Below are positions 16,688 to 35,832 of a stretch of 64,000 nucleotides of DNA, piece by piece. The notes below the pieces were generated by a model that searched no databases, had not been told where the DNA came from, and was given only the letters and a program-made list of their open reading frames with translations. Origin of the DNA: Pseudothauera hydrothermalis (GTDB taxonomy: Bacteria > Pseudomonadota > Gammaproteobacteria > Burkholderiales > Rhodocyclaceae); NCBI RefSeq assembly GCF_003345255.1, contig NZ_CP029331.1, forward strand, positions 1,302,001 to 1,366,000, given 5' to 3'. Positions within the stretch are counted from its first letter, which is position 1; every line of letters begins with the position of its first letter. Position numbers and translations under genes: made by a program.

Positions 16688-16730
16688 TGAGTGCGCCGTG
16701 CGTGCATGATGAATCCGTGGAGACCCTGGA

Positions 16731-17507
16731 ATGAACCTGAACGAGATGCCCGCCGAGCATTTGGCCCTGTTAGGCGGTGATGAACCGCCGCTCAGCCGCG
16801 AGGCGTTCGAAGTCCGACTGCGCGCCAAGAGCGCGAGTTACCACATCCACCACCCTTTTCACGTCATGATGGCCGAAGGGCGGCTCACCAAAGCGCAGTT
16901 GCAAGGCTGGGTGGCCAACCGCTATCTCTATCAGATTGCGATTCCGGTCAAGGACGCGGCCATCCTGTCCAACTGCCCGGACCGTGCGCTGCGGCGTGAG
17001 TGGATACAGCGGGTTCTCGACCACGACGGCTACGACATCGGCGGCATCCAGGACGATGGCGGCATCGAGGCGTGGATCCGCCTTGGTGAGGCGGTGGGGC
17101 TGAGTCGCGAAGAGATCACCTCGCAACGCCTGGTGGCGCCGGCGGCACGCTTCGCGGTCGATGCTTATGTCAACTTCGCCCGTCAGCGCCCCTGGCAGGA
17201 AGCAGTGGCATCCAGTCTCACCGAACTCTTTGCGCCGCACATTCATCAACAACGCTTGGACACCTGGCCGCAGAAATATCCTTGGGTCGACCCGGCAGGG
17301 CTGCAGTATTTTCGTAACCGTCTCACTCAGGCGCGCCGCGATGTCGCGCATGGGTTGCGTTTTACGTTGGATTACTTCAGCCAGAGCCGGGCATTACAAG
17401 AACGCGCGTTGGACATCCTGCAGTTCAAGCTAGATCTGCTGTGGGCGCTGGCTGACGCGATCATGTTGCAGCATTGCGAAATCGCCATTACCGGACCCAA
17501 GGCATGA
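16731..17507 (+). CDS. pqqC: Pyrroloquinoline-quinone synthase PqqC
   Basis: PqqC performs the final ring closure and eight-electron oxidation to PQQ, without a metal or cofactor. The 258-residue protein is a helical bundle of the TENA/PqqC fold. Conserved parts are [14 protein letters not shown] near residue 38, [26 protein letters not shown], and [16 protein letters not shown] with active-site histidines. It overlaps pqqD by ATGA, so the two are translated together. Confidence 0.96.
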
Positions 17508-17785
17508 ACACGGAGCAGGAGGGATTGCTGGTTGCACGTCCGCGCGTGGCGCGCCTACTCCGTCTGCAGTGGGAACAGGCGCAGCAGGCTTGGGTGTTGC
17601 TTTACCCGGAAGGCATGGTCAAACTCAACGCCAGCGCCGGTGAGATCATGAAACGCTGCGACGGTTCGCGAACCGTGACCGCGTTGATAGCCGAGCTGGA
17701 AGCGGCTTTTGGGGTAGCCGATCTGCGCGCCGATGTGCTGGCCTTTCTGGCCCTGGCCTTCAAGCAGCGCTGGATCGAAGTCTGA
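17504..17785 (+). CDS. pqqD: PqqA-binding chaperone PqqD
   Basis: PqqD is the RiPP recognition element that holds PqqA and delivers it to PqqE. The product is 93 residues from the ATG at 17504, which overlaps the pqqC stop; a longer upstream start would lie inside pqqC. The winged-helix pattern [31 protein letters not shown] followed by a [11 protein letters not shown] helix is characteristic (quoted here only in outline: [12 protein letters not shown] and GEIMKRCDG). pqqE follows 18 bases later. Confidence 0.95.
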
Positions 17786-17803
17786 GGTGAGCGGGGCACG
17801 CCT

Positions 17804-19542: not shown

Positions 19543-19558
19543 TGGTACGACTGTTGCA
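19543..19558 (+). promoter_or_regulatory. Sigma-54 promoter of the porin gene
   Basis: TGGTACGACTGTTGCA matches TGGCACG-N4-TTGCA at all but one base, with exact GG/GC spacing. The porin start codon is about 100 bases downstream. Confidence 0.8.
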
Positions 19559-19660: not shown

Positions 19661-20788
19661 ATGACAAAGAAGATCATCGCGATGGCAATTGCCGCCGCCG
19701 CTTCGGGCACGGCTTTTGGCCAGAGCAATGTGACGATCTACGGTAATGTCGATGCAGGCTTCGTGCACAGCAGCGGAGGTAGCGGGGGCGCCACCAGCCA
19801 ACGGATGAGCGGCTTGGCAAGCGCGGCCTCCGAAAGCTACATCGGGTTCAAAGGGGCGGAAGATCTGGGCGGTGGCCTGAAAGCCGTGTTCGACCTGCAG
19901 CAAGTGTTCGAACTCGATACCGGCGCTTCGTCGAACGCCACGGAAAACTACGGCCGCAGCTATATCGGGCTGGCCGGTGGTTTTGGTACCGTGGTCGCCG
20001 GCAAACTGGATGGGCTGCGCTACGGCATTTACGGCAAGTACAACCCTTTCGGCAACTACTCGGTGGGCAACTTCGCCTCGATGACCACGCAGTATGATCG
20101 CGCCCGCAATGCAGTGGCCTATATTTCCCCCAGTTTCAACGGCTTTACGCTGATTCTGGCCACTTCTTCCAACACCCAAACCCAGGAAGGCGCGCTCAAC
20201 GGTGTTCATGTGCCGGCAAAACCATCCAGGGGCAATACCGGCGATGATCGCCTGTTTTCCATCAATCTGATCTATGCCAACGGACCACTTAGTGTCGATC
20301 TCGATTACGAAACCACCAAAGCGGTGCACTATTCCGACAGCCGCCTGTATGTGGCGACCACCGGCGCATCCTACGACTTTGGCGTGGTCAAGCTGTCGGG
20401 TGTGTATGACGTGATCAAGGGTGAAAAAAATTCGCTGATCGGCGGAAATATCGACCTGGGCGGATTCAACCTGGGCGGGCTGGCCGCAGATCAGGAATAT
20501 GATCGGCGCAATTGGTTCGTCGGCGCGGAGGTGCCGGTGAACGAGCGTACCAAACTTCTGGCCAGCTACGGCCAGGTCAAAGACCGCACCTTGTCCGATG
20601 CCGATGCGAAAAAATGGGCGATTGGTGCGCGTTACGCCTTGTCCAAGCGAACCACGCTCTACGCTGACTATGCACAAATCAAAAACGATGACAACGCCGC
20701 ATTCACCATTACGCCAAAAGGTAACTCGTTAGGCTTGAGCGGTGTGGGGGTCAAAGGTTTTGCCATGGGCATGAAGCACAGCTTCTAA
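19661..20788 (+). CDS. Gram-negative outer-membrane porin (PorB/OmpC-like, betaproteobacterial type)
   Basis: A 375-residue trimeric-porin type protein. The signal peptide MTKKIIAMAIAAAASGTAFG is followed by the classic mature start QSNVTIYGNVDAGF. Family segments include SYIGFKGAEDLGGGLKAVF, GRSYIGLAGGFGTVVAGK, and the terminal strand ending in KHSF with C-terminal Phe. The sigma-54 promoter upstream and its place between pqqE and the regulators suggest it lets alcohols or related solutes into the periplasm under the same control. General diffusion porin function is from the family; substrate preference is inference. Confidence 0.92.
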   Translation: MTKKIIAMAIAAAASGTAFGQSNVTIYGNVDAGFVHSSGGSGGATSQRMSGLASAASESYIGFKGAEDLGGGLKAVFDLQQVFELDTGASSNATENYGRSYIGLAGGFGTVVAGKLDGLRYGIYGKYNPFGNYSVGNFASMTTQYDRARNAVAYISPSFNGFTLILATSSNTQTQEGALNGVHVPAKPSRGNTGDDRLFSINLIYANGPLSVDLDYETTKAVHYSDSRLYVATTGASYDFGVVKLSGVYDVIKGEKNSLIGGNIDLGGFNLGGLAADQEYDRRNWFVGAEVPVNERTKLLASYGQVKDRTLSDADAKKWAIGARYALSKRTTLYADYAQIKNDDNAAFTITPKGNSLGLSGVGVKGFAMGMKHSF

Positions 20789-21040: not shown

Positions 21041-21691
21041 TCACACCTCGATCAGCCCGCAGCGCACCGCAATCAGCGCCAGCTCCGCAGCGTTGCTGGC
21101 GTTGAGTTTTTGTTTGATGTGGTAAAGATGGGTGCCCACGGTGCTCGGACTCAGGTGTTGGGTTGCCGCTACTTCGTTGACCGAGCGGCCGCGAGCCAGT
21201 TGCAGGAAGACTGCGAACTCTTTATCGGTGAGCGCTTCGCTGGGGTCGCTGGCACCGCTGAGTTGGGCGAGCGCCAGTTGTGGGGCGAGTGCCGGATCGA
21301 TGTAGCGCTGACCACGGGCGACCTGGGCGAGTGCGCGCAGCATTTCAGCCGGATCGGCACGTTTGGAAAGATAGCCGGTGGCGCCGGATTTCAGTGCGCG
21401 CCTTGGAATCTGCAGGTCCTCGTGGGCAGAGAGCATCAACACCCGCGCATCCGGATAATGGGCAAGCAGGCGTGTCAAAGCGTCCAGGCCGCTGACGCCA
21501 GGCATGGTGACATCCATCATCAAGGCGTCCGGCTGGTGTTCGGCATACAACGCAATGGCGGCTTCGCTGCAATCGGCCTCGGCCACTACGGTGGCGCCGC
21601 CGCCTTCGAGCAGCAAACGAAAGCCCATGCGCACCACCGCGTGATCGTCAGCGATCAGAATGCGTTTGCCTTGCAACGGGAGCGAGTTCAT
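21041..21691 (-). CDS. NarL/LuxR-family response regulator (ExaE/PedR-like), pair 1
   Basis: A 216-residue regulator with a receiver domain (acid pair Asp15-Asp16, phospho-acceptor Asp60 in MMDVTMPG, Lys in LSKRAD) and a C-terminal LuxR-type helix-turn-helix (ALTDKEFAVFLQLARG, then SVNEVAATQHLSPSTVGTHLYHIKQ in the recognition region). I chose the ATG at 21691, giving MNSLPLQGKRILIADDH, with AGGA upstream. Longer in-frame starts would overlap the kinase gene. It is the last gene of an operon with a SoxYZ-like carrier, a metallohydrolase and kinase 1. It probably controls the divergent lanthanide-type dehydrogenase region or its own operon; this is inferred from position. Confidence 0.88.
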   Translation of the reverse strand: MNSLPLQGKRILIADDHAVVRMGFRLLLEGGGATVVAEADCSEAAIALYAEHQPDALMMDVTMPGVSGLDALTRLLAHYPDARVLMLSAHEDLQIPRRALKSGATGYLSKRADPAEMLRALAQVARGQRYIDPALAPQLALAQLSGASDPSEALTDKEFAVFLQLARGRSVNEVAATQHLSPSTVGTHLYHIKQKLNASNAAELALIAVRCGLIEV

Positions 21692-21735: not shown

Positions 21736-23115
21736 TCAGGAAAGTGGAGAGGGTGCGCGACAGGATGGAGCCGTGCGAACCTGTTGCGGCCAGGGCAGGC
21801 TGATCTGCACCGTGGTGCCGCCGCTCGCCGGCCGGACGATGGACAGTTCGCCGTGCCAGAGCGCGACACGCTCGCGCATGCCGGCCAAGCCGAAGCGCTC
21901 GGTGCTCAACGATGGATCGAAGCCACGGCCGTTGTCGCGTACGCAAAGCCGCAACCGGTCGGCCTCGGCATGCAGGTGGACATCCACCCGGTCGGCCCCT
22001 GCATGGCGGGCAACGTTGGTCAAGCTCTCCTGGAGCAGACGCAGCACGGTTAGACAATAATCCTCACCCAGCACCCGGTCTATCGGATCCAGCTTTGGGT
22101 TCAGCGTGATCGCCGGGTACAAACCGGCCCAGTGTGCGCAATAGTCGGCCAGCGCCTGACCCAAACGGCCAGCTGGCTGCATGTTCGGTCGGCGTAGGCG
22201 ATGCAGGATGGCACGCACGCCGTCTTGCATCTGCCCGGTCATGGCCAGAATGGCCTGGGCATTGCCATAAAGGCCGGGTTGGTCCGCGCTGCGCTGCGCA
22301 ATCGCGCCGGCGATGGCGCGCACCGCAGTGATGCTTTGACCCAATTCGTCGTGCAGTTCGCGGGCCAGTTGGCGGCGTTCCTCTTCGAGCCGAGCATTGA
22401 GGGCGTGTGTGAAAGCCTGATCTTGTTCGAGGCGGGCGTTGCGCAGCAGGCTGCAGTCGAGCTGGCTGGCCAGACGGTTGTAGCTGATCGCCAAGCGGTC
22501 CAGCTCGGCTACGCCGCACTGTGGCAGACGGATGTCGAAGGCGCCGTCGGCGCTGCGTGCCAGTGCTGCCTCGAGCGCGGCTAGTGGCGCCAACATTCGG
22601 GCGATGGCCCAGCCCGCGACCAACCACAGCAGGAGCAGCAGACCGAAGGCCCAGCCGGCAATCAACATCAACTCGTCCCAGGCGTCGAGTACGCTGCGCG
22701 AGGCGTCCGGGCGCAAGATCAAGGTGCGTGTGCCGGCTTGCAAACGGCGTTCGCGCAGTTCTGGGGTCAGCAGGGCTGCAAACCATGCCGGCGCATGGCG
22801 TCCGGCCTTGTAAGTGGGTTCGGGCGAGCGGTAGAGCAGTGTGCCGCTGGTATCGAGTATTTCCAGCGTGTTGGCACGCAGCCGGCCGACCGCGACCAAG
22901 CGGGCGGTCAGCCCCTCAGGGTCGATTAGGGCTTCGCCCGCCAGGACGGTCAGCCATTGTTCAGCTACCCGGGCGGCGGCCTCCACCTCCTCGTGGATTG
23001 CCTCCCGGGTGGCGCGTGCCCAGCCCAGGCTGGAGAGCAGGATCAGCAGCGCTGCAACCGCGGTGATCAGCAGGCTGATGCGGTCGCGCAGGCGGGGGGT
23101 GTGCTTAGCGATCAT
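21736..23115 (-). CDS. Membrane histidine kinase (HisKA_3, NarX/ExaD-like), pair 1
   Basis: A 459-residue sensor. Transmembrane helices lie near residues 13-33 and 151-171 with a periplasmic domain of about 115 residues between them, then a HAMP segment and a coiled region. The phospho-acceptor His255 is in [12 protein letters not shown], the HisKA_3 motif of NarL-partner kinases. The ATPase has RLLQESLTNVARHAGA and DNGRGF, then GLAGMRERV. The chosen ATG at 23115 overlaps the end of the metallohydrolase gene by 11 bases, so it is coupled to it. The periplasmic sensing domain has no obvious named fold. By analogy with PedS2 of Pseudomonas putida it could sense lanthanide or enzyme state, but nothing in the sequence proves this. 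Confidence 0.88.
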   Translation of the reverse strand: MIAKHTPRLRDRISLLITAVAALLILLSSLGWARATREAIHEEVEAAARVAEQWLTVLAGEALIDPEGLTARLVAVGRLRANTLEILDTSGTLLYRSPEPTYKAGRHAPAWFAALLTPELRERRLQAGTRTLILRPDASRSVLDAWDELMLIAGWAFGLLLLLWLVAGWAIARMLAPLAALEAALARSADGAFDIRLPQCGVAELDRLAISYNRLASQLDCSLLRNARLEQDQAFTHALNARLEEERRQLARELHDELGQSITAVRAIAGAIAQRSADQPGLYGNAQAILAMTGQMQDGVRAILHRLRRPNMQPAGRLGQALADYCAHWAGLYPAITLNPKLDPIDRVLGEDYCLTVLRLLQESLTNVARHAGADRVDVHLHAEADRLRLCVRDNGRGFDPSLSTERFGLAGMRERVALWHGELSIVRPASGGTTVQISLPWPQQVRTAPSCRAPSPLS

Positions 23116-24067
23116 CGCCGCGATGTTCCAGTGTCTGCTGTTCGATAGCCGGGTAAAGGTGCCCGACCGAGCGCGCATATTCTTCTTTAGCTACGGCAAG
23201 CCGAGCAAATACGCCCGGCAACGGGAGTTTGAGCACTTCAGTCATATCCATGCCGGCCGCGGCGCTGCGCCGCAACAGATCATCGAGCCATCTGAGATAG
23301 TCGCGGGTCTGGCGCAATGGGGCGGCATCATGCGCCACCGAACCATGGCCAGGCACCAGGACCTTGAAGGGCAGCGCTTCCAGCACATCGAGCGCGCCCA
23401 GCCAGCGCGGGATGTGCGCATGGGGCGTGGTGGGGCAGCGGTCGTGGAACACCAGATCGCCGGCGAACAGCGTTCCAGTGGCCAGATCGAGTACCGCAAG
23501 GTCCGCGCCGGTGTGGCCGTCCAGCGCAAACAATTCCAGGCTGCGGCCGGCGACCTCCAGCCGGCCGGGGCCAAGCTCGACGGTGGGCGGTGCAATCTCG
23601 GTGTCGCGCATCCAATCTCCAACCAGTCGATACATGTTGGCGTTGAACGATTCGCCCTCTTGCTCGATACCGGCCCGGGTGCGCGGCAAAGCGGCCAGCG
23701 TTCGGCGGTCGAACGCCTGATTGCCAAGAAAATGATCTGGATGATGATGGGTGTTGATCACCAGCACCACCGGCAGCGCAGTGACCCGGGCAATGGTCGC
23801 CCGCAATTGCTCGCCGTAACGCCGGGAAGGGCCGCTGTCGATTACCACCACGCCTTGTGGGCCGACAATGAAACCCGTATTGACGATATTGCCGCCGTTG
23901 CTGTTGGAGAAGTCCTGGGGCAAACCGGTCAGCACATAGACGCCTTCGGCCACTTTTTGCGGCTGCAAGCGGTAGTCGAAATCGGTGGCCAAGGCAGCGC
24001 ATACTGGCAAGGCCAGCAGCATCCAGGCTGTCGTCCAGCATGCCACGGTCTTTGTAAAGCGGTTCAT
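23105..24067 (-). CDS. Quinoprotein relay system zinc metallohydrolase (SoxH-related)
   Basis: A periplasmic metallo-beta-lactamase-fold protein of 320 residues with a signal peptide (LLALPVCAALA). The metal motif is THHHPDHFLGN, with later ligands in DGHTGADL, LFAGDLVFHD and VPGHG. The subfamily goes with SoxYZ-like carriers beside PQQ dehydrogenases (TIGR04558-type). It probably acts on a group attached to the cysteine of the carrier encoded just upstream; the 4-base overlap (24064-24067) supports a working pair. The actual substrate is unknown. Confidence 0.87.
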   Translation of the reverse strand: MNRFTKTVACWTTAWMLLALPVCAALATDFDYRLQPQKVAEGVYVLTGLPQDFSNSNGGNIVNTGFIVGPQGVVVIDSGPSRRYGEQLRATIARVTALPVVLVINTHHHPDHFLGNQAFDRRTLAALPRTRAGIEQEGESFNANMYRLVGDWMRDTEIAPPTVELGPGRLEVAGRSLELFALDGHTGADLAVLDLATGTLFAGDLVFHDRCPTTPHAHIPRWLGALDVLEALPFKVLVPGHGSVAHDAAPLRQTRDYLRWLDDLLRRSAAAGMDMTEVLKLPLPGVFARLAVAKEEYARSVGHLYPAIEQQTLEHRGDDR

Positions 24068-24831
24068 CGTGCCACCTCCGCGGCAATGCGGTTGCCGTTG
24101 TTGTCCCGTCCCACAAGCGCCAGCGGGCCGGCGGCCACGGAAGGCGGTAAGTCCACGGTGAACACCGGGTTTTCGGCTACCGGTTCGGCTGGATGAATGC
24201 GCATTAGCTCGGCGCCTGCAGCGTCGCGCAAGGTGAGGGTGTCGATATGAAATACCGGCACGCCGGGAGCCAGGCCGGTGTCCATCGGGTGGATGATACG
24301 CAGGCGCACGCGCAAGCCGCCGTCGATGCGTGGCCAGATGCGCGCGCTCACTTCATTGAGGCGCTCTTGCCATTCGGTCGAGCCGGAACCCGTGGAGGGC
24401 AGCGTGCATCCGCCACCGGTGGTGTTGACCCACGTTCCACCGACATGCCAACGCCCGTCCGCAGTGCGAGCGGCCGCGCGCACCGGGCTCGATTGCTGAA
24501 GCTTGAGGCGAAAACCCAGACTGGCGCGCGCGCCCAGCGGTTGGAAGTCTAGCGCCTTGACGATGGGGTTGAAGTCGGCAAACACGACTACCTCTTCCAC
24601 CACGCCGGGCAGGCGGGTGGCATCGACCAGTACGGGCACGTCGAGTGGATTTTCAGCGGTCGCCGGTGCATGAACCTGCACCCGTTCGTCGAAGACTACC
24701 AGGGCGTCGGCAAAGAACATGGCCCGCATGTCCTGCCAGCGGGCCGAATCGAGCGGATCGTCCTTGGCCGCGCAAGCCAGACTGGCGGCACTGGCCATCG
24801 CCAAGGCGACGAGGTTGATGAAGATGCGCAT
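24064..24831 (-). CDS. Quinoprotein dehydrogenase-associated SoxYZ-like carrier
   Basis: A 255-residue exported protein in which a SoxY-like domain (about residues 30-140) is fused to a SoxZ-like domain (about 160-255). The likely carrier cysteine is in TGGGCTLPSTGSG between them, the place of the SoxY GGCGG arm. The ATG at 24831 follows GGAGGAG by 5 bases and starts a good signal peptide (MRIFINLVALAMASAASLACA). It begins the operon carrier-metallohydrolase-kinase-regulator and is divergent from the lanthanide-type dehydrogenase. The family is known from genome context only (TIGR04557-type). Confidence 0.87.
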   Translation of the reverse strand: MRIFINLVALAMASAASLACAAKDDPLDSARWQDMRAMFFADALVVFDERVQVHAPATAENPLDVPVLVDATRLPGVVEEVVVFADFNPIVKALDFQPLGARASLGFRLKLQQSSPVRAAARTADGRWHVGGTWVNTTGGGCTLPSTGSGSTEWQERLNEVSARIWPRIDGGLRVRLRIIHPMDTGLAPGVPVFHIDTLTLRDAAGAELMRIHPAEPVAENPVFTVDLPPSVAAGPLALVGRDNNGNRIAAEVAR

Positions 24832-25160
24832 GGTGTCTCCTCCGGGTGGGCGGTCTTGGCCGCTCCTCCATATGACCAAAATCCAAGCAAATGACATGCC
24901 ATGGCGTTTCTTGGCGTCAATGCAGCTTACAGGTGTCCGTGGGTGTATCGAAATGAAACAGGTGCTTACATGCGGAACACCAAAATTGCGTCGCGCCAGC
25001 GACTCGGTGCCGGCGTAGCCCATGGTCAGCGTTTCGAAGCACAAGCCCTTGGAAGATGGCACGCACCTTGCAAACAGGCGCTTTGCCAACCGGCCCAGTC
25101 GATGGGCCGGCGCGAATCAGTCACGGACAAGACACCCTGAGACCAAGGAGGAAAAATCGA
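24832..25160. other. Divergent control region between SoxYZ-like operon and dehydrogenase 1
   Basis: These 329 bases contain the -24/-12 promoter at 25057-25072 for the rightward gene, and AGGTG motifs at 24931, 24942 (GGTGT) and 24960, about 95-125 bases upstream of it, where enhancer sites would be expected. The leftward promoter is not clear. No gene is present. Confidence 0.55.
25057..25072 (+). promoter_or_regulatory. Sigma-54 promoter of the lanthanide-type alcohol dehydrogenase gene
   Basis: TGGCACGCACCTTGCA is a full match to TGGCACG-N4-TTGCA. The start codon is 88 bases downstream, and AAGGAGG precedes it. Confidence 0.9.
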
Positions 25161-26960
25161 ATGGAGCAGATCCACACATTGAAGCGCCGCCACTGTGTGC
25201 CGAGCGTCATCGCTGCGGCCGTGATGGCGCTGGGCAGCGTACAGGTGCTGGCCAAGGAGGTGACCGACGCCGACATTCTGAACGACGCCACCATCACCAC
25301 TCAGGTGGTCACGCACGGCCTTGGCACCAAAGGACAGCGGTTCAGCCCGTTGACGCAGATCAATCGTCATACCGTCAAGGACTTGGTGCCGGTGTGGTCC
25401 TTTTCCTTTGGTGGCGAGAAGCAGCGAGGACAGCAGTCGCAACCGTTGGTTCATGACGGCAAGATGTATGTTACCGCCTCTTACAGCCGTATCTTTGCGT
25501 TGGATGTGAAAACCGGCGAAAAACTGTGGAAGTACGAACATCGCTTGCCCGAAGGCATCATGCCCTGCTGCGATGTCATCAACCGCGGTGCGGCCTTGTA
25601 CGGCAATCTGGTGATTTTCGGCACCCTGGATGCCCAGCTGGTGGCCTTGGATAAGGACACCGGCAAAGTGGTCTGGAAAGAGAAAATCGAGGACTACAAG
25701 GCCGGTTATTCGATGACTGCGGCGCCGCAGATCGTCAAAGGTCTGGTGATCACCGGTAACTCCGGAGGCGAGTTCGGCATTGTCGGTCGTGTCGATGCCC
25801 GCGATGCCAAGACCGGCAAGCTGGTGTGGACCCGTCCGGTGGTCGAAGGCCATATGGGCTACAAGTACGACAAAGACGGCAAACCGACCGAGAACGGCAT
25901 CACCGGCAAGACCAACGCGACTTGGCCAGGCGATCTGTGGAAAACCGGCGGCGCCGCGCCCTGGTTGTCGGCTTATTACGACCCGGATGTTGACCTGATC
26001 TTCATCGGCACCGGCAACCCCGCACCCTGGAACAGCCATCTGCGCCCGGGCGACAACCTGTATTCGTCGTCCACCGTGGCGATCGATCCGGACTCTGGCC
26101 AGATCAAGTGGCATTACCAGAGCACACCGCACGACGGTTGGGACTTCGACGGTGTCAATGAATTTGTCTCCTTTGAGTACAAGGATCCAAAGACCGGTAA
26201 ATCGGTCAAGGCCGGCGGCAAGGCCGACCGCAACGGCTTCTTCTTTGTCAATGACCGGACCAACGGCAAGCTGCTTAACGCCTTCCCGTTCGTTACCCGT
26301 ACCGACTGGGCCTCGGGCATCGATTTGCAGACCGGGCGGCCGATTTACCGGGAAGAGAAGCGCCCGGGCAGCCCGTTTGAAGACGGCGGTGGCGACGGCA
26401 AGAAGGGCAAAGTGGTCTTTACCGCGCCCTCCTTCCTGGGAGGCAAAAACCAGATGCCGATGGCTTACAGCCCGAAGACCGGTTATTTCTATGTGCCGGC
26501 CAACGAATGGGGCATGGACATCTGGAACGAGCCGGTGTCCTACAAGCGCGGCGCAGCCTACCTGGGCGCAGGTTTCACCATCAAGCCGCTCTACGAGGAT
26601 TACATCGGCGCTTTGCGTGCTGTCGATCCGGTCAACGGAAAGATCGTCTGGGAGGTCAAGAACAGCGCGCCGCTGTGGGGCGGGGTGCTCGCCACCGCGG
26701 GTGACCTGGTGTTCTATGGCACGCCCGAGGGCTACCTGAAAGCGGTCGATGCGCAAAGCGGCGAAGAGCTTTGGAAGTTCCAGACCGGCTCGGGCGTCAT
26801 TGCCCCGCCGATCACCTGGGAAGACAACGGCGAGCAGTTTATTGCCGTGGTGTCCGGCTGGGGCGGTGCGGTGCCGCTGTGGGGCGGTGAGGTGGCCAAG
26901 CGCGTGAACTTCCTCGAGCAAGGCGGTTCGGTGTGGGTGTTCAAGCTGCACAAGAGCTGA
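25161..26960 (+). CDS. PQQ-dependent alcohol dehydrogenase, lanthanide type (ExaF/PedH-like)
   Basis: A periplasmic quinoprotein that oxidises alcohols such as ethanol to aldehydes and passes electrons to cytochrome c. The 599-residue protein has a signal peptide ending near VQVLA and an eight-bladed propeller with W-docking repeats ([22 protein letters not shown]). The adjacent cysteines Cys136-Cys137 (PCCDVINRG) form the ring disulfide over PQQ. Metal ligands are Glu204 (SGGEFG), Asn286 (GTGNPAPWN) and catalytic Asp328. Two residues later is Asp330 (motif W-D-F-D-G). That extra Asp is the hallmark of lanthanide-dependent members such as XoxF, ExaF and PedH; calcium enzymes have Ala or Ser. 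The ATG at 25161 was chosen for its AAGGAGG site and signal peptide. A canonical sigma-54 promoter is upstream. Confidence 0.92.
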
Positions 26961-27002
26961 GAATGCCGGCTCCGCCGCGGCGGGGCTGAATTCGGCCATT
27001 GC

Positions 27003-27028
27003 GGCCCGGGTGTTCGCGCACCCGGGCC
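27003..27028 (+). terminator. Hairpin after dehydrogenase 1
   Basis: A perfect 10-bp stem GGCCCGGGTG/CACCCGGGCC around TTCGCG, 42 bases after the stop codon. There is no T run on either side, so it may be a factor-assisted or bidirectional terminator between convergent genes. Confidence 0.6.
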
Positions 27029-27067
27029 GTGTCATGTCGACATACCGCTGGCAGTGCGCAAGGGTGC

Positions 27068-27565
27068 TCATCGTTTCACACTCCGCTGGGCTTCGACAAA
27101 ACTGCGCAGTGCCCAGATTGCTTCTTGTGACAGCACCCCCGCCCAGGGTGGCATGTGTTCCACCCCAAGGCGAATTTTGCCTTCGAGTACGGTGGTGAGA
27201 AAGTAATGATCCGCGTCGCGGGTGCAGCGCGCGGCCAGTTGCGGATCTTTCAGACGCTGGCAGTACATTCCGACCAGCCGCAGATTGGCCGCAGGGCCAG
27301 GTTCGAGCGACTCGGCCCCGTGACAGCGGGCGCAGACTTGGGCATAGAGCGCGCGGCCGACCGCGATGGCGTGGGCGTTGCCGCGGTAGGGGTTTTCTTC
27401 GCGCCATTCGTTGCCCAAGGCGGGCAGCCCGGACAGGTCGACCGTCGGTGCCACGGGCGTCGCAGCACCGACGCCGCCGGGTATGACCAGCAGCAAAGCC
27501 AGTAGCAGCGCCCGGCTGCGGCGGCGCTGCGTTGTGTCGGCACAGGCTCGAGTCGGTGTGGACAT
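27068..27565 (-). CDS. Periplasmic cytochrome c associated with dehydrogenase 2
   Basis: A 165-residue single-heme cytochrome c. The start at 27565 (MSTPTRACADTT) follows the pentapeptide gene by 16 bases; the in-frame extension upstream lies inside that gene. An N-terminal hydrophobic segment (ALLLALLLVIPGGVGAA) serves for export. Heme is held by Cys78 and Cys81 in CARCHG with His82; the distal Met is probably in VEHMPPWAG. The stretch LPALGNEWREENPYRGN is shared with the PedF-like cytochrome at 41043-41480, so the two are paralogues. Likely electron acceptor of the dehydrogenase encoded two genes upstream. Confidence 0.85.
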   Translation of the reverse strand: MSTPTRACADTTQRRRSRALLLALLLVIPGGVGAATPVAPTVDLSGLPALGNEWREENPYRGNAHAIAVGRALYAQVCARCHGAESLEPGPAANLRLVGMYCQRLKDPQLAARCTRDADHYFLTTVLEGKIRLGVEHMPPWAGVLSQEAIWALRSFVEAQRSVKR

Positions 27566-27581
27566 GGGCGCCTGCGCTGGC

Positions 27582-28181
27582 TCACCAGCCTTCCGGACAG
27601 CCCTTGCAGCCGTCCAGGTTGGCATCGGGGAAAATGGCAAAACGCAGCACGCAGCGCTCCATGATGGCATCGGCAAGATTGGCATTGTTGAACTTGGCCT
27701 CCTGTAAATCGGCCTCGATGAAGCGGGCCTGCACGAAACGGGCGTAATTGGCGCGCGCCGCTTCGAGCATTGTCCCGGTGAAGTCCGCACCGCTGAAATC
27801 CGAGCGCATGAGGCGGGCGAATTCCATGTGCGCGCCGGCAAAGTTGGCGCCGCGAAATAGCGCCACCGGCGCGTTGACCTTGTCCAGCCGGGCCTCGCGC
27901 AGGTCGGCACCGTCTAGCGTGGCGCCGGCCAGGTTGGCTGCCCGCAGATCCGCACCGCGTAGATTGGCGCCGCGCAAATCGGCACCGGCAAGATTGCGGC
28001 CGACCAGCGAGGCACCCGCTAGATCTGCACCAGGGCAGCGGGTGTAGGGCCAGATGCCGCAACCGTTGATGATGTCGGGATCGCCGGTTGAGTCCTGTGC
28101 GGTTTCGCTGGGGCCAGCCAGCGCCCCACAGGCAAGCGCTGAGAACAGCAAAACGGTGGAAACAGTCCGTAGGGTGTGCAT
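27582..28181 (-). CDS. Exported pentapeptide-repeat protein
   Basis: A 199-residue protein with a signal peptide (SALACGALAG) followed by an Ile/Cys-rich start (IINGCGIWPYTRCPG) and about 20 tandem A(D/N)LXX repeats, such as GADLRGANLRGADLRAANLAG (repeat unit ADLRG). These fold as a right-handed square beta-helix. The C-terminal part has CVLRFA and CKGCPEGW, so four or more cysteines may form disulfides. It lies between dehydrogenase 2 and its cytochrome. A structural or electron-transfer docking role in the periplasm is possible but not shown. Confidence 0.85.
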   Translation of the reverse strand: MHTLRTVSTVLLFSALACGALAGPSETAQDSTGDPDIINGCGIWPYTRCPGADLAGASLVGRNLAGADLRGANLRGADLRAANLAGATLDGADLREARLDKVNAPVALFRGANFAGAHMEFARLMRSDFSGADFTGTMLEAARANYARFVQARFIEADLQEAKFNNANLADAIMERCVLRFAIFPDANLDGCKGCPEGW

Positions 28182-28236
28182 GGTTTGATGCCTCTTGCAA
28201 GCGGGGCGCCGCCAAAGCTGCGTCCCGCCTGGCGTT

Positions 28237-30120
28237 TTAGCGGCTCGCTAATTTTTTGGGCAGTTTGAAGACCCAGAATGAGCCGCCCTGCGTGACCTGC
28301 TTGGTGAGGTCTGCCATATCGCCGCCCCACAGCGGCACCGCGCCGCCATAGCCGCTGGATAGGCCGATGTACTGCTCGCCGTCCATTTCCCAGGTGATCG
28401 GTACCGAGACGATGCCGGAGCCGGTCTGAAACTTCCACAGCTCCTTGCCGGTTTTGGCATCGAACGCTTTGACGTAGCCGTCGGAGGTGCCGGTAAACAC
28501 CAAGCCACCGGCAGTGGCCAGCGTACCGGCCCACAAGGGGAATTCCTCCTTGTGTTCCCAAACGATCTTGCCGGAGACCGGATCGAGCGCCCGCAGCGTG
28601 CCGACATGGTCATTGAACAAGCGCTTGATGCGGAAGCCTTGGCCAAGATAGGCAGAGCCAGCCTTGTAGCTCACTTTTTCGGTCCAGTAGTCCATTGCCC
28701 AATGGTTGGCGGCGATGTAGAACAGGCCGGTATCCGGGCTGTAGGACATCGGGTTCCAGTTCTTGCCGCCGAGAAAAGGCGGCGAGACGAACACCGATTC
28801 GCCTTTATCTGCGCCGTCCTTGGGCAACGGCGGGCGGTTGCCGGTTTCGATTGGTTTGCCGGTCTTGAGGTCGAAGCCTTTGGCCCAGGTGATGCCGTCG
28901 ACAAAGGGATAAGCGGCGATCAGCGCGGTTGGACGGTTCGGATAGCCGGAACCGTTGGCGAGCTTGTCGCGGTCGGTGATGAAGAAAAAGCCGTTACGGT
29001 CGGCATGTGCGCCGGCCTTGACGGTTTTGCCGGTTTTCGGATCCTTGTACTCGAAGAGTACGATCTCGTTGTTCCCGGAAAAATCCCAGGCATCGTTCGG
29101 GGTGTGTTGGTAGAAGCCTTTGAGTTCGCCGGTTGCGGCATCCACATAAGCTTGACCGGAGGTAAACAGGCTGTCCCAGTTGCGCGGATCGTCGCCCGGT
29201 GCGGTGCGCGCCCAGGTGTTCCAGGGCGCGGGGTTGCCCGCGCCGATGACGATGGTGTTGGTTTCGGCGTCAAAGGTGGCGCTTTGCCACGGGGCGCCGC
29301 CGCCGTGACTCCAGGCTTCGACCTTGCCGGTTGGACGAGTTGGGTCGTTGGGCCATGAAGGCGCCTTGGGGTCGCCGGTGGGTGTGCTGTCCTTGCCGTT
29401 GAGGCGGCCCATGTGGCCTTCGACCAGCGGACGTGCCCAGACCTCTTCCCCGGTATCGGGATCGCGTGCAAACAGGTAGCCGACCACGCCGAATTCATCG
29501 CCTGAGCTGCCGTGAACGAGCAGCACACGGCCGCTTTTCTGGTCCTTGACGATGGTGGGGGCGCCGGTCATGGTGTAGCCGATCTTGTGGTCGCCAAACT
29601 TTTTCTTCCACACCACTTTGCCTGTCTGACGGTCGAGGGCCACGATGGATGCGTCCAGCGTGCCAAAGAACACCTTGTCGCCGTAGATCGCCGCGCCGCG
29701 GTTGATCACATCGCAACACGGGCGGATGTCGTCCGGCAGACGGTGCTCATAGGCCCATAGCTGCTTTCCGGTCCTGGCGTCGAGGGCGAAGATGCGCGAG
29801 TACGAGGAGGTGACATAGATCACCCCGTCATGGACCAGAGCTTGGGCTTCCTGACCGCGCTGTTTTTCGCCGCCGAAGGAAAACGACCATGCCGGCACGA
29901 GTCCAGCTACCGTTTGGGTGTTGATCTGGGTCAGAGGGCTGAAGCGCTGGCCTTTGAGTCCCATCCCGTACATCAAAACGTCGTCGGTGGTATTGGCGTC
30001 GTTGGCGATGTCATCCCAGCTGACCGGGGCGGCGGATGCCGGAAAAGCGCTGGCCACCGCAATCGCCACCGCTGCAAGGCGGAGCGCCGGCCCGATCCGT
30101 TTTTGGGGGTTCCGAAGCAT
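28237..30120 (-). CDS. exaA: PQQ-dependent alcohol dehydrogenase, calcium type (ExaA/PedE-like)
   Basis: The second quinoprotein alcohol dehydrogenase, 627 residues with a signal peptide ending at FPASA. It shares architecture with the enzyme at 25161: Cys135-Cys136 in PCCDVINRG, Glu209 in SSGDEFG, Asn296 in GAGNPAPWN and catalytic Asp346. The residue two after it is Ser348 (motif W-D-F-S-G), as in calcium-dependent ExaA and PedE. It also has an insertion near residues 300-320 ([14 protein letters not shown]) absent from the other enzyme. The ATG at 30120 has GGAG upstream and starts the signal peptide; a longer frame would run into the kinase 2 promoter. It heads an operon with the pentapeptide protein and cytochrome c. 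No -24/-12 promoter was found on this strand. Confidence 0.92.
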
Positions 30121-30268
30121 TTCACGTCTCCATTCGTTGTCTGGTCTACCGACGGTCCAGCCCATGGCGTGTCCGTGGCGTTGCGCAGTATCCGGCACCG
30201 TTGGCTGCGCGGTCGCGGGAACCTCCCCTGCGCGCACCGGGATGATTTCCCGTTGTCGCCGGCAGGCG

Positions 30269-30284
30269 TGGCACGTGGGTTGCT
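30269..30284 (+). promoter_or_regulatory. Sigma-54 promoter of the kinase 2 operon
   Basis: TGGCACGTGGGTTGCT is a full match to TGGCACG-N4-TTGCW, 34 bases upstream of the kinase start codon and divergent from the calcium-type dehydrogenase. Confidence 0.88.
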
Positions 30285-30318: not shown

Positions 30319-31683
30319 ATGGATCTGCGTTGGCATCTGGTGGGCGGGCTGTGTGCATTTTCTGTTGCGCTACTGGCGGCTGCGTTGCTGCTGGTGGGCT
30401 TCGCGTTGCGAGAGGATGTGGCCGAGGAAGTGGAGGCTTCCAGACGTCTGGCCGAGCTGATGCTGGCGGTACATGAGGCGCGTGAAGGCTCGTCGGCGGC
30501 GCTGGAGCGTTTGCTTGCCGACGGACGATTGCGTCATGTGCGTGTATCGCTGGAGCGTCCCGAAATGGAACAGTCGCTCCATCGCACACCATCGAACTCC
30601 GGCGTGGTGGATTGGCTAGCCGGCCAGTTGACCGCCACCGAGACGGCCGCATTGCGCATTCCGCTGGGCCGCGATGTGCTTTGGGTGAGCGCCGATCCGC
30701 GCGCCGAGATCTACGAGATCCTGCGCGATGCGGCATTCATGCTTGCCACCTTGTTGGCATTCTTACTGGCAGGCGGAACCATGGCTTGGTTTGCGATCGA
30801 TCGCGCGCTACGGCCGGTGCGCGCGCTCGAAGACGGCTTGCAGCGCCTCGCGCAAGGCGCCACCGACGCGGTGCTGCCGCAGTTTGAATTGCGCGAGTTT
30901 CGTCGTATTGCCCACGCCATCGAACGGTTGTCGAGCAGTCTTGCCGATGCGCGGGCCGCCGAACGCGCCTTGGCACGGCGCCTGATCGATCTGCAAGAGA
31001 GCGAGCGTCGTCATCTGGCGCGTGAGTTGCATGATGAGTTCGGCCAGTCGCTGGCAGCAATCGGTGCGGCTGCAGCCTTCGTCGAGCGTCATGCGGGCTG
31101 TGCCGATGCCGACAGTCTGATGGCCTGCGCGCGCGACATCCGCACACAGGTGACACAAATGACCGCGCAGGTGCGCGGGCTGCTTAGCGAACTGCGGCCT
31201 CACGGTCTCGAGGGGCTGGGCATGCTGGATGCGCTGACCGAATTGATCGGTGCCTGGCAGCAGCGCGCGAGCGGTGTGACCTTGGAGGCGCGCTTACCCC
31301 AGGTCTTGCCTGAACTCTCGCCCAATGCCGGATTGGCGCTGTACCGCTCATTACAAGAGGCGCTCACCAACGTCTTGCGCCACAGCGGCGCGCGGCGGGT
31401 GTGGGTGAGAGTCAGCGAGTTGTCCGGCGGGGTCTGCCTGGCGGTTTGCGATGACGGTTGCGGCCGGGCGAGTTTGGTCCGTCCCGGCGGTGGTCTGCTG
31501 GGGATGCGCGAACGCGTGGAAATGGCCGGCGGACGGCTGGTGTTCGGTAACGCGCTGGAGGGCGGGTTGAGACTGGAACTATGGCTGCCCGGAGTGAAAA
31601 AGGAGAGAGACAGAAATGACAATACGCATTTTGCTACTCGACGATCATGCGGTGGTCCGCAGTGGGTACCGGCGGTTGCTTGA
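30319..31683 (+). CDS. Membrane histidine kinase (HisKA_3, ExaD/PedS-like), pair 2
   Basis: A 454-residue sensor with helices near residues 7-29 and 138-158, a periplasmic domain of about 110 residues, a HAMP segment ([18 protein letters not shown]) and the phospho-acceptor His238 in [12 protein letters not shown]. The ATPase part has [16 protein letters not shown] and DDGCGR, then [12 protein letters not shown] used the ATG at 30319; the ATG at 30298 would sit right at the expected transcription start. The last 68 bases overlap the regulator gene, an unusually long overlap. The promoter is sigma-54 type, so this sensor itself is under RpoN control. Confidence 0.88.
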
Positions 31684-32272
31684 CGCCGAGCCGGGTTTCG
31701 AGGTGGTTGCCGAGGCGGCCACCTGCGACGAGGCCTACGCCTGCCTGCAACGCGGTGGCGTGGACGTGGCCGTGGTCGACATCAGTCTGCGCGGCAGCAG
31801 CGGCATCGAGGCCATTCGCCGTATGCTGGCGCGCGCCCCGGAGCTGCGCATTCTGGTGCTGTCGATGCACGACAATCCGGGTTACATCACTCAAGCCATG
31901 CGCGCCGGAGCGGTTGGCTATCTGACCAAAAGCTGCGAACCGGCCGAGATGTTCGATGCCATCCGCGCCGCGGCGGGCGGACGGCGCACGCTCTCGCCCG
32001 AGGTGGCGCAGTCGCTTGCCACGGCTGCGCTGGATGGAGAGCACGGACTTTCACGCCTGACCCCGCGAGAGTTCGAAGTGTTGCGCATGGCAGCCGGCGG
32101 CGATTCGGCAGCGACGATTGCCCGGCGCATGCATCTGAGCCAGAAAACCGTACTCAACCATATGTCGGCGATCCGGCAAAAGCTAGAAGCCGACAACGAT
32201 TTCAAACTGCTCAGGCTGGCTATGTGCCATGGCTTGGTGGATCTGCCGGCCGCGTTCGCTTACCGGGGGTGA
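31616..32272 (+). CDS. NarL/LuxR-family response regulator (ExaE/PedR-like), pair 2
   Basis: A 218-residue regulator. The receiver has Asp9-Asp10, phospho-acceptor Asp55 in VVDISLRG and LTKSCEP with the conserved Lys. The LuxR helix-turn-helix is in LTPREFEVLRMAAGG and IARRMHLSQKTVLNHMSAI. A strong AAGGAG lies upstream even though the start is inside the kinase gene. It is not nearly identical to regulator 1 (different linker and recognition helix), so the two pairs probably read different signals. Its most likely target is the divergent calcium-type dehydrogenase operon, judged by position. Confidence 0.9.
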   Translation: MTIRILLLDDHAVVRSGYRRLLDAEPGFEVVAEAATCDEAYACLQRGGVDVAVVDISLRGSSGIEAIRRMLARAPELRILVLSMHDNPGYITQAMRAGAVGYLTKSCEPAEMFDAIRAAAGGRRTLSPEVAQSLATAALDGEHGLSRLTPREFEVLRMAAGGDSAATIARRMHLSQKTVLNHMSAIRQKLEADNDFKLLRLAMCHGLVDLPAAFAYRG

Positions 32273-32317: not shown

Positions 32318-33172
32318 ATGAAACGCGTATTCAAGTCCATGCTGGTGCTGGCTTCCATGCTTGCCGCGCTGGCACTGCCGGCTGTCGCCGCCGAACGCGC
32401 CACCCCGCGCGAGGCACGCAGCCTGTTCGAGCAAGCAGTCCAATACATGCAGGACAACGGCGCAGAACGCGCATTTGCCGCCTTCAATAACCAGAAAGGC
32501 AAGTTCGTGCGCAAGGATTTATACGTCTTTGTGATCGATGACAAAGGTGTTTATCACGCCAGCGGCGCCGCCCCCGAGGCCCTGGTGGGCATGAACGTGC
32601 TCGATACCACCGATGCGGCCGGCAATCCGCTGTTCCGCCAAATGATCGACGCCACTCGTCAGGCCGACGAAGCCACGGTGCGTTACATGTGGCTGAACCG
32701 GGTCACCAACAAAATCGAACCCAAGGTGAGCTATGTGCGCAAGATCGGCCATTATGTTCTGGGCGTAGGCTATTCGGCTCCGCGCGCCAGCGCCGAGGAT
32801 GCGCGTGCAATGTTGCAGCGGGCGGTTGCCTTTGCCCAGGCGCAGGGCCCGGACAAGGCGGCAGCAGCTTTCAACGATCGCGGCGGCGAGTTCGTCAAGG
32901 ACGATCTGTACGTGTTCATGGTTGACCTGGCGAGCGGCCGCTTTCAAGCCATGGGGATGAATCCAGCATTGTCGGGCACCGATGCGATCGGTTTGCACGA
33001 TGCTGCCGGCCATGCGCTGGTCGCGGAAATGGTTGAGAAGCTCAAGAGCGCCGACGAGGCGAGCGTCGAATACGTCTGGCGTAACCCGGTGACCAATGCG
33101 GTGGAAAAGAAGCGCTCCTACGTGCGCAAGGTCGGCGGCTCGCTGATTGGGGTGGGGCACTACCTTGATTAA
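32318..33172 (+). CDS. Exported protein with two tandem Cache domains
   Basis: A 284-residue protein with a signal peptide (MLAALALPAVAA) and two repeats of about 120 residues. Repeat 1 has ARSLFEQAVQYMQDNGAERAFAAFN and KFVRKDLYVFVIDDKGVYHA; repeat 2 has ARAMLQRAVAFAQAQG and EFVKDDLYVFMVDLASG. Each repeat ends with a VEYVWRNPVTN and KKRSYVRKVG-like segment. This is the single Cache_2 fold, known as a small-ligand sensor, here without membrane anchor or output domain. It starts 45 bases after the regulator and ends at a strong terminator, so it is third in the kinase 2 operon. It may bind an alcohol, aldehyde or acid and present it to the kinase. Confidence 0.82.
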   Translation: MKRVFKSMLVLASMLAALALPAVAAERATPREARSLFEQAVQYMQDNGAERAFAAFNNQKGKFVRKDLYVFVIDDKGVYHASGAAPEALVGMNVLDTTDAAGNPLFRQMIDATRQADEATVRYMWLNRVTNKIEPKVSYVRKIGHYVLGVGYSAPRASAEDARAMLQRAVAFAQAQGPDKAAAAFNDRGGEFVKDDLYVFMVDLASGRFQAMGMNPALSGTDAIGLHDAAGHALVAEMVEKLKSADEASVEYVWRNPVTNAVEKKRSYVRKVGGSLIGVGHYLD

Positions 33173-33278: not shown

Positions 33279-33426
33279 CGGGCAATGCTCGTAAGGCGGG
33301 AATTTTTCCCGGGTTGGTGCGCCCGGCTTCCCAGGTGGAGCAGGCGAGCAATCCCTAAAATTGGTTGCCGCTCAAGCTTTCCAAGGCCAGGCGCCGCATC
33401 AAGCACGATAAAGGAGACACAAGACA

Positions 33427-35832
33427 ATGGGCGTTACCGCAACGACCGTCTGGTCATTTGCTCGACCTGCCAAGAGCCGTTTTTTCAAGCACCGTCTCAG
33501 ACTCTTGGCGATGGGAGTGGCATGGGCGATGAGTTCGGCGACGCAGGCCCAAAACCAGACGCCCGATCAGCTTGGACCGACCGTGACCGTGATTGGTACT
33601 ACGCCGCTGCCCGGTATCGGCGTGACCGCCGACAAACTGCCGGCCAACGTGCAGACAGTCGAGGGTGAGGCCCTGCAGGCGCAGCACAGCCTGACCATCG
33701 CGGACTACATGGCGCAGAACATGACCGGGGTGAACGTCAATGAGACTCAGAACAACCCCTTTCAACCCAATGTGAATTTTCGCGGCTTCACCGCCTCGCC
33801 GCTGCTTGGCACCCCCCAGGGGCTGTCGGTGTACCAGGATGGCGTGCGCGTGAACGAACCGTTCGGTGACGTGGTGAGCTGGGACCTGATCCCGACCAAC
33901 GCGCTGGCCGACATGGTGTTGATTCCGGGCTCCAATCCGTTGTTTGGCCTCAATACCTTGGGCGGCGCCATTTCGCTGCAAACCAAGCGCGGCTATACCC
34001 ACCGCGGTGCTGCGGTGGAGCTGTCCGCCGGCGCTTGGGGGCGCCACAACGCCCAGGTAGAGTACGGCGGGGTGGCGGACAATGGGGTGGACTACTTCAT
34101 CGCCGGCAACTGGTTCGAGGAGGATGGCTGGCGCGATGCCTCGCCCTCTGACGTGCGCCAGCTGTTCGGCCAGCTAGGATGGCGAAATGACCGCACCGAC
34201 CTTAGCCTGAACCTGTCCCTGGCTGACAACGACCTGATCGGCAATGGTCTGGTGCAGCGGGAGTTTTTGCGCGCCCAGGGCTGGGAGGCGATCAACACTA
34301 AACCGGACCAGACCGCGAACAAGCTCGCCTTCCTCAACTTCAACGCCAGCCACTGGATCGATGATGACATCATGGTGAGCGGCAATGTCTATTATCGAAA
34401 TGCACGCACCCGCACCCTCAATGGCGATGTCAATGACGACATCGATCCGGACGAGCCGGGTTTCGATCTGGACGATTGCGTGCCCGGGGCGGACGAGGAC
34501 GACGCCGAGATCTCCTGCAGCGGGGCGCTCAATCGCAGCAAGTCCAGGCGCGTGGGCTACGGGGCCAGCGCGCAGCTCAACTTCAACCAGAACCTCTTTG
34601 GCCGCCAGAACCTCTTTATCGTCGGGCTGGGCTATGACCGCAGCCGCACCGATTTCGAGCAGGGCACCGAGTTTGGCACCCTCAACACCGGCCGCGGCGT
34701 GGACGGCATCGGCGTGTTCGGCGACGATGGCGAAGTCCAGTTGCGCGGGGTCAATCGCAGCTGGAGCTTTTTCTTGACCGATACTTTTTCGTTCAACGAG
34801 CTCTATCACCTGACTTTGTCGGGGCGTTATACCCACACCCGGGTGGAGAACCGCGACCGCCTGATCCCGGACCCCGGAAATCCCGAATCCTTGACCGGCG
34901 ACCACAGTTTCAAGCGCTTCAACCCGGCGATCGGCTTGGCAATCACCCCGAACAGGAATCTGTCGTTCTACGCCAGCTACAACGAAGCCGGCCGCGCGCC
35001 GACCGCCATCGAACTGGGCTGTGCCAATCCGGATCAACCGTGCAAGTTGCCCAACGCCATGGCCGGCGATCCGCCGCTCGACATGGTGGTGTCCAAAACC
35101 TTCGAGGGCGGCGTGCGCGGTAAAGTGGCGGACCGCTTCGGTTACAGCTTGAGTCTGTACCGCACCCAGAACACCGACGACATCCAGTTCATCGCCGCCA
35201 ATTCAACCGGCGCCGGCTACTTCTCCAACGTCGGTAAAACGCGCCGCCAGGGGATCGATCTGGGCGTCAATGGCGAGATCGGCAAGTTCCGCTGGTTCGC
35301 CGGCTACAGCTACATCGAGGCCACCTACCAGTCCGCCTTCTCGATCGCCAACGAGGTCAATTCCAGCGCGGTGGATACCGACAGCGACGGCGAGGGGGAC
35401 ACCATACTCGTCCGCAAGGGCGACAGCATCCCCGGCATCCCGCGTCATCAGTTCAAGCTGCGCGGCCAATGGCAGGCGCTGCCGCATTGGACCATCGGCG
35501 CCAACATCGTGGCCTTCTCCAGCCAGTATTCGCACGGCAACGAGAACAACGACCACCAGGGCACCGGCGGCAAGGTGAGCGGCTACACCGTTGTGAACCT
35601 GGATACGCGCTACAGCTTTGGCAAGAGCGGCTGGCAGCTGTTCGCTCGGGTCAACAACCTGTTCGACAGGAAGTACTACACCGGCGGCATGTTGGGCGAA
35701 ACCTTCTTCGAAGCCGACGGCACCTTCATGGGCGGCGACGACGAGTTCTCCGCGCTGGTCGCGCCCGGTGCGCCTCGCGCAGCGTGGATCGGCGTGCGCT
35801 ACGAGTTCGGCAAGGCGGGCGGGCGGTTCTGA
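33427..35832 (+). CDS. TonB-dependent outer-membrane receptor with acidic loops
   Basis: An 801-residue receptor. A long N-terminus ends in the export signal region MGVAWAMSSATQAQ. The plug domain spans about residues 50-190 (SVYQDGVRVNEPFGDVVSWD, quoted in part; LFGLNTLGGAI), followed by a barrel ending in the aromatic GRF. The substrate class is not evident. Two features stand out. Residues 334-364 form a loop with 14 acidic residues out of 31 and end near Cys351 and Cys364. Residues 650-658 (DTDSDGEGD) look like an EF-hand-type DxDxDG metal site. Both could bind calcium or lanthanide ions. It sits between the kinase 2 operon and the degenerate AcoR-like gene, inside the PQQ island. Confidence 0.85.
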   Translation: MGVTATTVWSFARPAKSRFFKHRLRLLAMGVAWAMSSATQAQNQTPDQLGPTVTVIGTTPLPGIGVTADKLPANVQTVEGEALQAQHSLTIADYMAQNMTGVNVNETQNNPFQPNVNFRGFTASPLLGTPQGLSVYQDGVRVNEPFGDVVSWDLIPTNALADMVLIPGSNPLFGLNTLGGAISLQTKRGYTHRGAAVELSAGAWGRHNAQVEYGGVADNGVDYFIAGNWFEEDGWRDASPSDVRQLFGQLGWRNDRTDLSLNLSLADNDLIGNGLVQREFLRAQGWEAINTKPDQTANKLAFLNFNASHWIDDDIMVSGNVYYRNARTRTLNGDVNDDIDPDEPGFDLDDCVPGADEDDAEISCSGALNRSKSRRVGYGASAQLNFNQNLFGRQNLFIVGLGYDRSRTDFEQGTEFGTLNTGRGVDGIGVFGDDGEVQLRGVNRSWSFFLTDTFSFNELYHLTLSGRYTHTRVENRDRLIPDPGNPESLTGDHSFKRFNPAIGLAITPNRNLSFYASYNEAGRAPTAIELGCANPDQPCKLPNAMAGDPPLDMVVSKTFEGGVRGKVADRFGYSLSLYRTQNTDDIQFIAANSTGAGYFSNVGKTRRQGIDLGVNGEIGKFRWFAGYSYIEATYQSAFSIANEVNSSAVDTDSDGEGDTILVRKGDSIPGIPRHQFKLRGQWQALPHWTIGANIVAFSSQYSHGNENNDHQGTGGKVSGYTVVNLDTRYSFGKSGWQLFARVNNLFDRKYYTGGMLGETFFEADGTFMGGDDEFSALVAPGAPRAAWIGVRYEFGKAGGRF

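Follow-up and report, generated by a model that had tools for sequence, protein, structure and literature searches.

A ped-type locus of Pseudothauera hydrothermalis with lanthanide-type and calcium-type alcohol dehydrogenases and predicted sigma-54 control

The window analysed here is a 64,000-nucleotide stretch of the Pseudothauera hydrothermalis genome (contig NZ_CP029331.1, positions 1,302,001 to 1,366,000; coordinates below are counted from its first letter), and it contains two neighboring genes for pyrroloquinoline quinone (PQQ)-dependent alcohol dehydrogenases, ADH1 and ADH2. The locus probably encodes a ped-type periplasmic alcohol oxidation system, in which orthologues of the lanthanide-type PedH and the calcium-type ExaA/PedE are combined, sigma-54 would replace the top regulator of the Pseudomonas system, and the two-component system on the pedE side would drive a candidate lanthanide receptor. 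As judged from sequence, the enzymes and accessory genes are of known kind, and it is the control layer that differs from that of Pseudomonas putida.

The enzyme pair and the ped gene set

ADH1 (25161–26960, plus strand) is a PedH-type (lanthanide-type) protein of 599 amino acids with a WDFDG motif (Asp328/Asp330), and ADH2 (28237–30120, minus strand) is an ExaA/PedE-type (calcium-type) protein of 627 amino acids with a WDFSG motif (Asp346/Ser348). Both motifs had been read in the same way in an earlier note on this DNA, and the translations confirm them. The open frames that it gave for the two genes are real; it left the strand of the second unstated, which is minus, since 28237–30120 contains stops on the plus strand and is open on the minus strand alone. 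The two genes are convergent.

The earlier note proposed an alignment to XoxF, PedH and ExaA as a check, and this places ADH1 nearest to PedH and ADH2 nearest to ExaA. ADH1 is 66% identical to 6zcw, which we take to be P. putida PedH (the structure record itself is titled quinoprotein ethanol dehydrogenase), and 58% identical to ExaA (1flg). Its bit scores are 884 for PedH, 720 for ExaA and 376 for XoxF, so that membership of XoxF is ruled out. ADH2 resembles the ExaA system of Pseudomonas aeruginosa, with 75% identity to ExaA 1flg and 53% to 6zcw (1042 vs. 662 bits). The WDFDG motif of ADH1 is also present in XoxF (6oc5) and 6zcw; in XoxF and PedH, the second Asp binds the lanthanide. A tree of 145 rows was built by a quick method, leaving out proteins shorter than 540 amino acids and duplicates over the last 300 residues. 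In it, a single branch (Shimodaira–Hasegawa-like approximate likelihood ratio test, 99) separates 119 Asp rows from 25 Ser rows, and one distant paralogue lies outside both sides. ADH1 sits among the 119 Asp rows, which take in the solved PedH chain 6zcw, and ADH2 groups with ExaA/PedE. The motif difference between the classes is systematic: among matches from the fetched loci, same-genome duplicates counted, WD[FY]DG occurs in 125 of 127 of the PedH class (the exceptions being one WDFDA and one 34% paralogue without the motif) and WD[FY]SG in all 25 of the PedE class. These comparisons support the lanthanide-type and calcium-type pair that the earlier note proposed, and the pair within a ped system is real.

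The genome is one contig of 3,059,321 bases; queried with ADH1 (E ≤ 1e-150), it yields ADH1 and ADH2 alone. The PQQ_2 model finds both, together with a protein around 716 kb, presumably BamB, that has a weaker match next to it, and a weak match at 2,478 kb. ADH1 and ADH2 are the sole two strong PQQ alcohol dehydrogenase matches of the genome, and neither XoxF nor MxaF is found among its PQQ dehydrogenase matches.

Each enzyme gene is divergent from its own kinase/LuxR-type regulator operon, as the earlier note had described and the gene layout confirms. ADH1 diverges from an operon running from 24831 down to 21041 on the minus strand, whose first three genes overlap or touch: a SoxYZ-like carrier (24064–24831), the quinoprotein relay zinc metallohydrolase 1 (23105–24067), a histidine kinase (HK1, 21736–23115) and a LuxR-type response regulator (RR1, 21041–21691). 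ADH2 diverges from a histidine kinase (HK2, 30319–31683) and a LuxR-type response regulator (RR2, 31616–32272), both on the plus strand. The carrier (fuse_rel_SoxYZ) and the metallohydrolase (SoxH_rel_PQQ_1) score above the curated cut-offs, which here and below are those of NCBIfam. Between ADH1 and ADH2 lie genes for a second, PedF-like cytochrome c (27068–27565, minus; 107.7 of 122 bits, below the curated cut-off) and a PedD-like pentapeptide repeat protein (27582–28181, minus).

Farther out, the plus strand carries pedA1A2BC-like ATP-binding cassette (ABC) transporter genes (11611–15337), comprising an ABC ATPase, a beta-propeller protein and a PedC permease (PQQ_ABC_ATP, PQQ_ABC_repeats and PedC, all above the cut-offs) and an ABC binding protein below it (367.5 of 413.6 bits). 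They are followed by a pqqA-like open reading frame (15645–15719, plus) and pqqB, pqqC, pqqD and pqqE (15776–18919, plus; PqqB, C, D and E above the cut-offs). On the other side are an ExaC-type aldehyde dehydrogenase (37887–39407, plus; ExaC above the cut-off), cytochrome c-550 PedF (41043–41465, minus; c550_PedF above the cut-off) and a weak PedG-like binding protein (40205–41053, minus; 24.4 of 212 bits, below the cut-off). With transporter, pqq genes, PedF, SoxYZ/metallohydrolase, pentapeptide protein and aldehyde dehydrogenase all nearby, the window contains most of the P. putida ped set as listed in PMC12997753. The earlier note was thus right about the likeness to PedE/PedH of P. putida, where the ped cluster of strain KT2440 has the same two enzyme classes and most of these accessory genes, and wrong in supposing different accessory genes here.

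Several neighbors were also observed. A porin gene, counted with the ped-type accessory genes, lies at 19661–20788 (plus; 67.6 of 480 bits, below the cut-off). SsuABC/NMT1-like ABC transporter genes (8866–11617, plus) adjoin the pedA1A2BC-like genes, as they do in loci L048 and L195. A DUF779 protein (39567–39950, plus) follows ExaC, with which it is paired in many relatives. A TonB receptor at 5608–7731 (minus) resembles PqqU best (649.7 bits against a curated cut-off of 1200) and may be a PQQ receptor.

Among named organisms, Aromatoleum, Azoarcus/Parazoarcus and Thauera are the nearest relatives (best 80 of 585 matches). In a survey of 101 genomes of the family, some of them incomplete, 34 have either enzyme, 33 with the PedH type and 13 with the PedE type: 12 carry both, 21 the PedH type only and one the PedE type only. 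The lanthanide type is thus the commoner one in this family. Twelve fetched loci (L126 being locus L067) show the convergent pair again, which rules out chance neighborhood; 10 of these have both two-component systems, and those of Thauera sp. 28 and a Thauera metagenome-assembled genome (MAG) are without HK1/RR1. Two further loci hold both enzymes in a different arrangement. The named loci and the family genomes overlap in part. The PedH region of L096, a record titled Klebsiella pneumoniae MAG, groups with betaproteobacterial rows and is possibly from a misnamed bin. The assignment of genome G095 as calcium-type only is doubtful, as its HK1 contig stops about 370 bases past HK1, and those bases include sigma-54 sites.

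Sigma-54 sites and the repeat before pedH

The sigma-54 promoter that the earlier note placed at the lanthanide-type gene corresponds to an exact site, TGGCACGCACCTTGC, at 25057–25071 (plus), and is a prediction from sequence. Two more exact sites precede the HK2-RR2 operon (30269–30283, plus) and pedF (41601–41615, minus), and sites with one mismatch precede soxYZ (24887–24901, minus), exaC (37816–37830, plus) and the porin gene (19543–19557, plus). The 3.06-Mb genome has 18 exact sites, three of them inside the window. With at most one mismatch, the window contains 14, several intragenic; 20 mononucleotide shuffles gave 3.25 on average and never more than 7. A single rpoN is present in the genome, along with eight strong sigma-54 activator domains, among them that of an AcoR-like protein encoded beside pedF (41815–43845, plus), which combines a GAF domain, an intact AAA+ activation domain with GAFTGA, and a helix-turn-helix. 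With the −24/−12 site, rpoN and an activator bearing GAFTGA and a helix-turn-helix all present, sigma-54 activity at pedH is predicted, and the protein beside pedF would be its likeliest activator. A further AcoR/DhaR-like protein (35939–37564, minus) has GAF and weak AAA+ domains, lacks GAFTGA and has no helix-turn-helix listed; a relative of similar length in L153 is likewise without GAFTGA.

Relatives were scanned for sites with at most one mismatch in 250 bp upstream (background 0.025 per 250 bp). Left out of this count and of the box count described below were matches below 40% identity (kinases excepted and, in the box count, TBDR2 also), matches starting past query residue 40 or 45, upstream regions shorter than 150 bp and duplicates over the last 100 bp; like filters apply to the pedH site, half-site, direct-repeat-pair and 420-bp receptor counts. 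A site is present in 95 of 117 PedH-class regions vs. 1 of 24 PedE-class regions, and also before exaC (25/30), pedF (38/61), soxYZ (43/70) and HK2 (9/18). None was found before HK1 (0/37), sCache (0/28), the pentapeptide gene (0/20) or pedA1 (0/15). The −24/−12 site is the only conserved block in the column consensus of pedH upstream regions. It occurs in all 34 PedH regions whose locus includes HK1/RR1 and in 60 of the 82 whose locus does not; therefore, RR1 does not make the pedH promoter a sigma-54 promoter. The two fetched Pseudomonas-like genomes show no site before PedH. A literature search, mainly of non-subscription papers, found no paper on how PedH is controlled in Rhodocyclaceae, nor any on PedH-type genes being under sigma-54.

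Upstream of the pedH site lies a spaced direct repeat of two TTTGRWRCA-like half-sites 19 bp apart (24952–24979, plus; two mismatches per half), to which RR1 or the AcoR-like activator may bind. The chance is close to even that the repeat is the activator's site and that HK1-RR1 does not control pedH at all, given that pedH, soxYZ, pedF, the activator gene and exaC all have an excess of half-sites upstream (0.84–1.23 per region, background 0.21). The 19-bp-spaced pair itself, however, occurs in 19 of 34 PedH regions with RR1 and HK1 in the locus vs. 1 of 82 others, a contrast confounded by taxonomy, which argues for RR1.

Two-component systems, the GGGA-N5-TCCC box and the TonB receptor

In a tree of 75 regulators, which left out those shorter than 180 amino acids and identical rows, RR1 falls in a clade of 33 rows (100/100), all divergent from PedH-type genes, and RR2 in a clade of 18 (100/100), 16 of which are divergent from PedE-type genes and two beside PedH. 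HK1 orthologues (at least 46% identity) occur in 9 of 12 both-enzyme, 10 of 21 PedH-only and 1 of 1 PedE-only genomes; for HK2 (at least 44% identity) the corresponding numbers are 9 of 12, 4 of 21 and 1 of 1. Each system is tied, loosely, to the neighborhood of its own enzyme. HK1 does not always adjoin PedH: in G009 it is flanked by a ped transporter/EBP1-like stretch on one side and pqq genes on the other. The periplasmic parts of HK1 and HK2 contain conserved acidic residues.

A GGGA-N5-TCCC box stands before pedE (30239–30251, imperfect arms) and again, with perfect 5-bp arms, at 33298–33310 before the gene for a TonB-dependent receptor (33427–35832, plus), a candidate lanthanide receptor. 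Of 24 PedE-type regions, 18 have the box no more than 250 bp from the gene start (background 0.008), including those of Azospirillum brasilense, Sphaerotilus and a Pseudomonas-like genome; among PedH-type regions, 15 of 117 have it. In Pseudomonas-like genome G245 it stands upstream of both genes, at 160 bp from PedE and 43 bp from PedH, a pair that would suit a regulator activating one gene and repressing the other, as PedR2 does; G228, also Pseudomonas-like, has no box at PedE or PedH.

A previous count of boxed receptors (6/18) had been limited by the filters. When recounted with 420 bp upstream (background 0.014 per 420 bp), the box precedes all 11 receptor homologues within 2.5 kb of HK2/RR2 (the window counted), none of 17 near HK1/RR1, two of 18 elsewhere and none of 28 PqqU-like receptors. 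Some of the 11 receptor genes diverge from HK2, and there the box could belong to either gene. Three of the 11 are in genomes without detected PedE (G016, G056 and G077; 79–85% complete). HK2 loci without PedE and without a visible receptor are those of G009 and of a short second contig of G077, where the box precedes HK2 itself. Of 31 RR1-HK1-metallohydrolase-PedH loci, duplicates included, 16 (e.g., L038, L058 and L124) also have a receptor homologue, without a box, inserted between the HK1 and metallohydrolase genes. A Cache-domain protein (32318–33172, plus) is encoded after RR2; it is found near PedH in many relatives and is possibly a periplasmic sensor part.

The 420-bp recount makes the following proposal slightly more likely, though it stays tentative: the receptor would take up lanthanide or a lanthanide chelate and be co-expressed with pedE under the control of HK2-RR2 at lanthanide scarcity, and in Betaproteobacteria the lanthanide enzyme would be the sigma-54 default and the calcium enzyme a scarcity back-up. 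If HK2 is active without lanthanide, like PedS2, production under scarcity is what would fit an uptake receptor. There is a serious minority chance that the two-component systems instead sense alcohol, redox state or another metal such as iron or copper, that no rare-earth switch exists, and that the receptor has a different cargo. This would agree with HK1 being kept in PedH-only genomes, with HK2 and the receptor in genomes without detected PedE, with the absence of a recognised sensor domain in either kinase and with the best curated family of the receptor, a general siderophore-receptor model, below its cut-off. Yet HK2-RR2 is placed like PedS2-PedR2, diverging from pedE, and the box is common to the receptor and pedE, both of which point to lanthanide sensing.

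Proposed control and comparison with known systems

In the control that we propose, an alcohol signal would act through the AcoR-like activator and sigma-54, which would switch on pedH, the soxYZ-HK1-RR1 operon, pedF-pedG, exaC and HK2-RR2. HK2-RR2, the positional counterpart of PedS2-PedR2, would then activate pedE and the TonB receptor via the GGGA-N5-TCCC box, at lanthanide scarcity if HK2 senses like PedS2, and HK1-RR1 would tune the pedH side. The metal dependence of ADH1 and ADH2 and the metal-responsive switch are likewise predictions, as the earlier note had already said of a rare-earth switch. It is improbable that the two enzymes are merely PQQ ethanol dehydrogenases split by substrate or growth condition, the extra Asp of ADH1 permitting but not requiring lanthanide: metal use is indeed read from residue and clade, but ADH1 sits with the solved PedH chain, and the window has the pedA1A2BC-like transporter that P. 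aeruginosa, which has no lanthanide enzyme, lacks according to PMC12997753.

Several observations weigh against the proposed control. The 75-row tree does not place RR2 together with the Pseudomonas-like regulators, and no sensor domain above the cut-off was found in HK1 or HK2. The coupling of systems to enzymes is not strict, since PedH-only genomes include 10 with HK1 and four with HK2. No sigma-54 site was found in 22 of the 117 PedH-class regions. One-mismatch sites are not confined to the proposed targets, as they also precede homologues of the activator gene (EBP2, 17/48) and PqqU-like receptors (7/19). The scan shows no site before A. brasilense exaA, although this gene, which is of the PedE class, is reported as sigma-54 dependent in work cited in PMC6115532; the rule or the scan therefore has exceptions. 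No box stands before pedH in the window, so mutual control in the P. putida style is not indicated. Finally, the loci are related, and the counts are non-independent.

For P. putida, PMC13390443 describes a cascade from PedR1 to pedS2R2 to pedE, and PMC6115532 has PedR2 activating pedE and repressing pedH. The proposed order would repeat PedR1, PedS2R2 and PedE with a different top regulator. As in strain KT2440, a kinase-regulator pair faces pedE and its pentapeptide gene. Unlike KT2440, the window has a second such pair, in the pedH-side operon, and sigma-54 sites before pedH and other units; the pedE-type box stands at the TonB receptor and not at pedH. ADH2 is 78% identical to A. brasilense ExaA, whose gene is likewise followed by a pentapeptide gene, faces a kinase-regulator pair and has the box. 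However, no PedH-type gene lies within the 21.7-kb A. brasilense stretch examined, and exaA there is the gene reported as sigma-54 dependent in spite of the missing site in the scan. MxaY of Methylomicrobium buryatense is described in PMC6115532 as a lanthanide-responsive membrane kinase with a HAMP domain near a PQQ dehydrogenase. HK1 and HK2 are also membrane kinases with HAMP near PQQ dehydrogenases; unlike in MxaY, the LapD/MoxY domain is below the cut-off in HK1 (E 0.17) and unlisted for HK2, and the genome has no XoxF/MxaF matches.

Two points are left open by work on P. putida: what activates pedH (PMC6115532) and how lanthanides pass the outer membrane (PMC12997753). The layout described here offers a candidate for each, namely the pedH-side two-component system with sigma-54 as a possible means of pedH activation, and the TonB receptor with its pedE-type box as a possible outer-membrane route for lanthanides.

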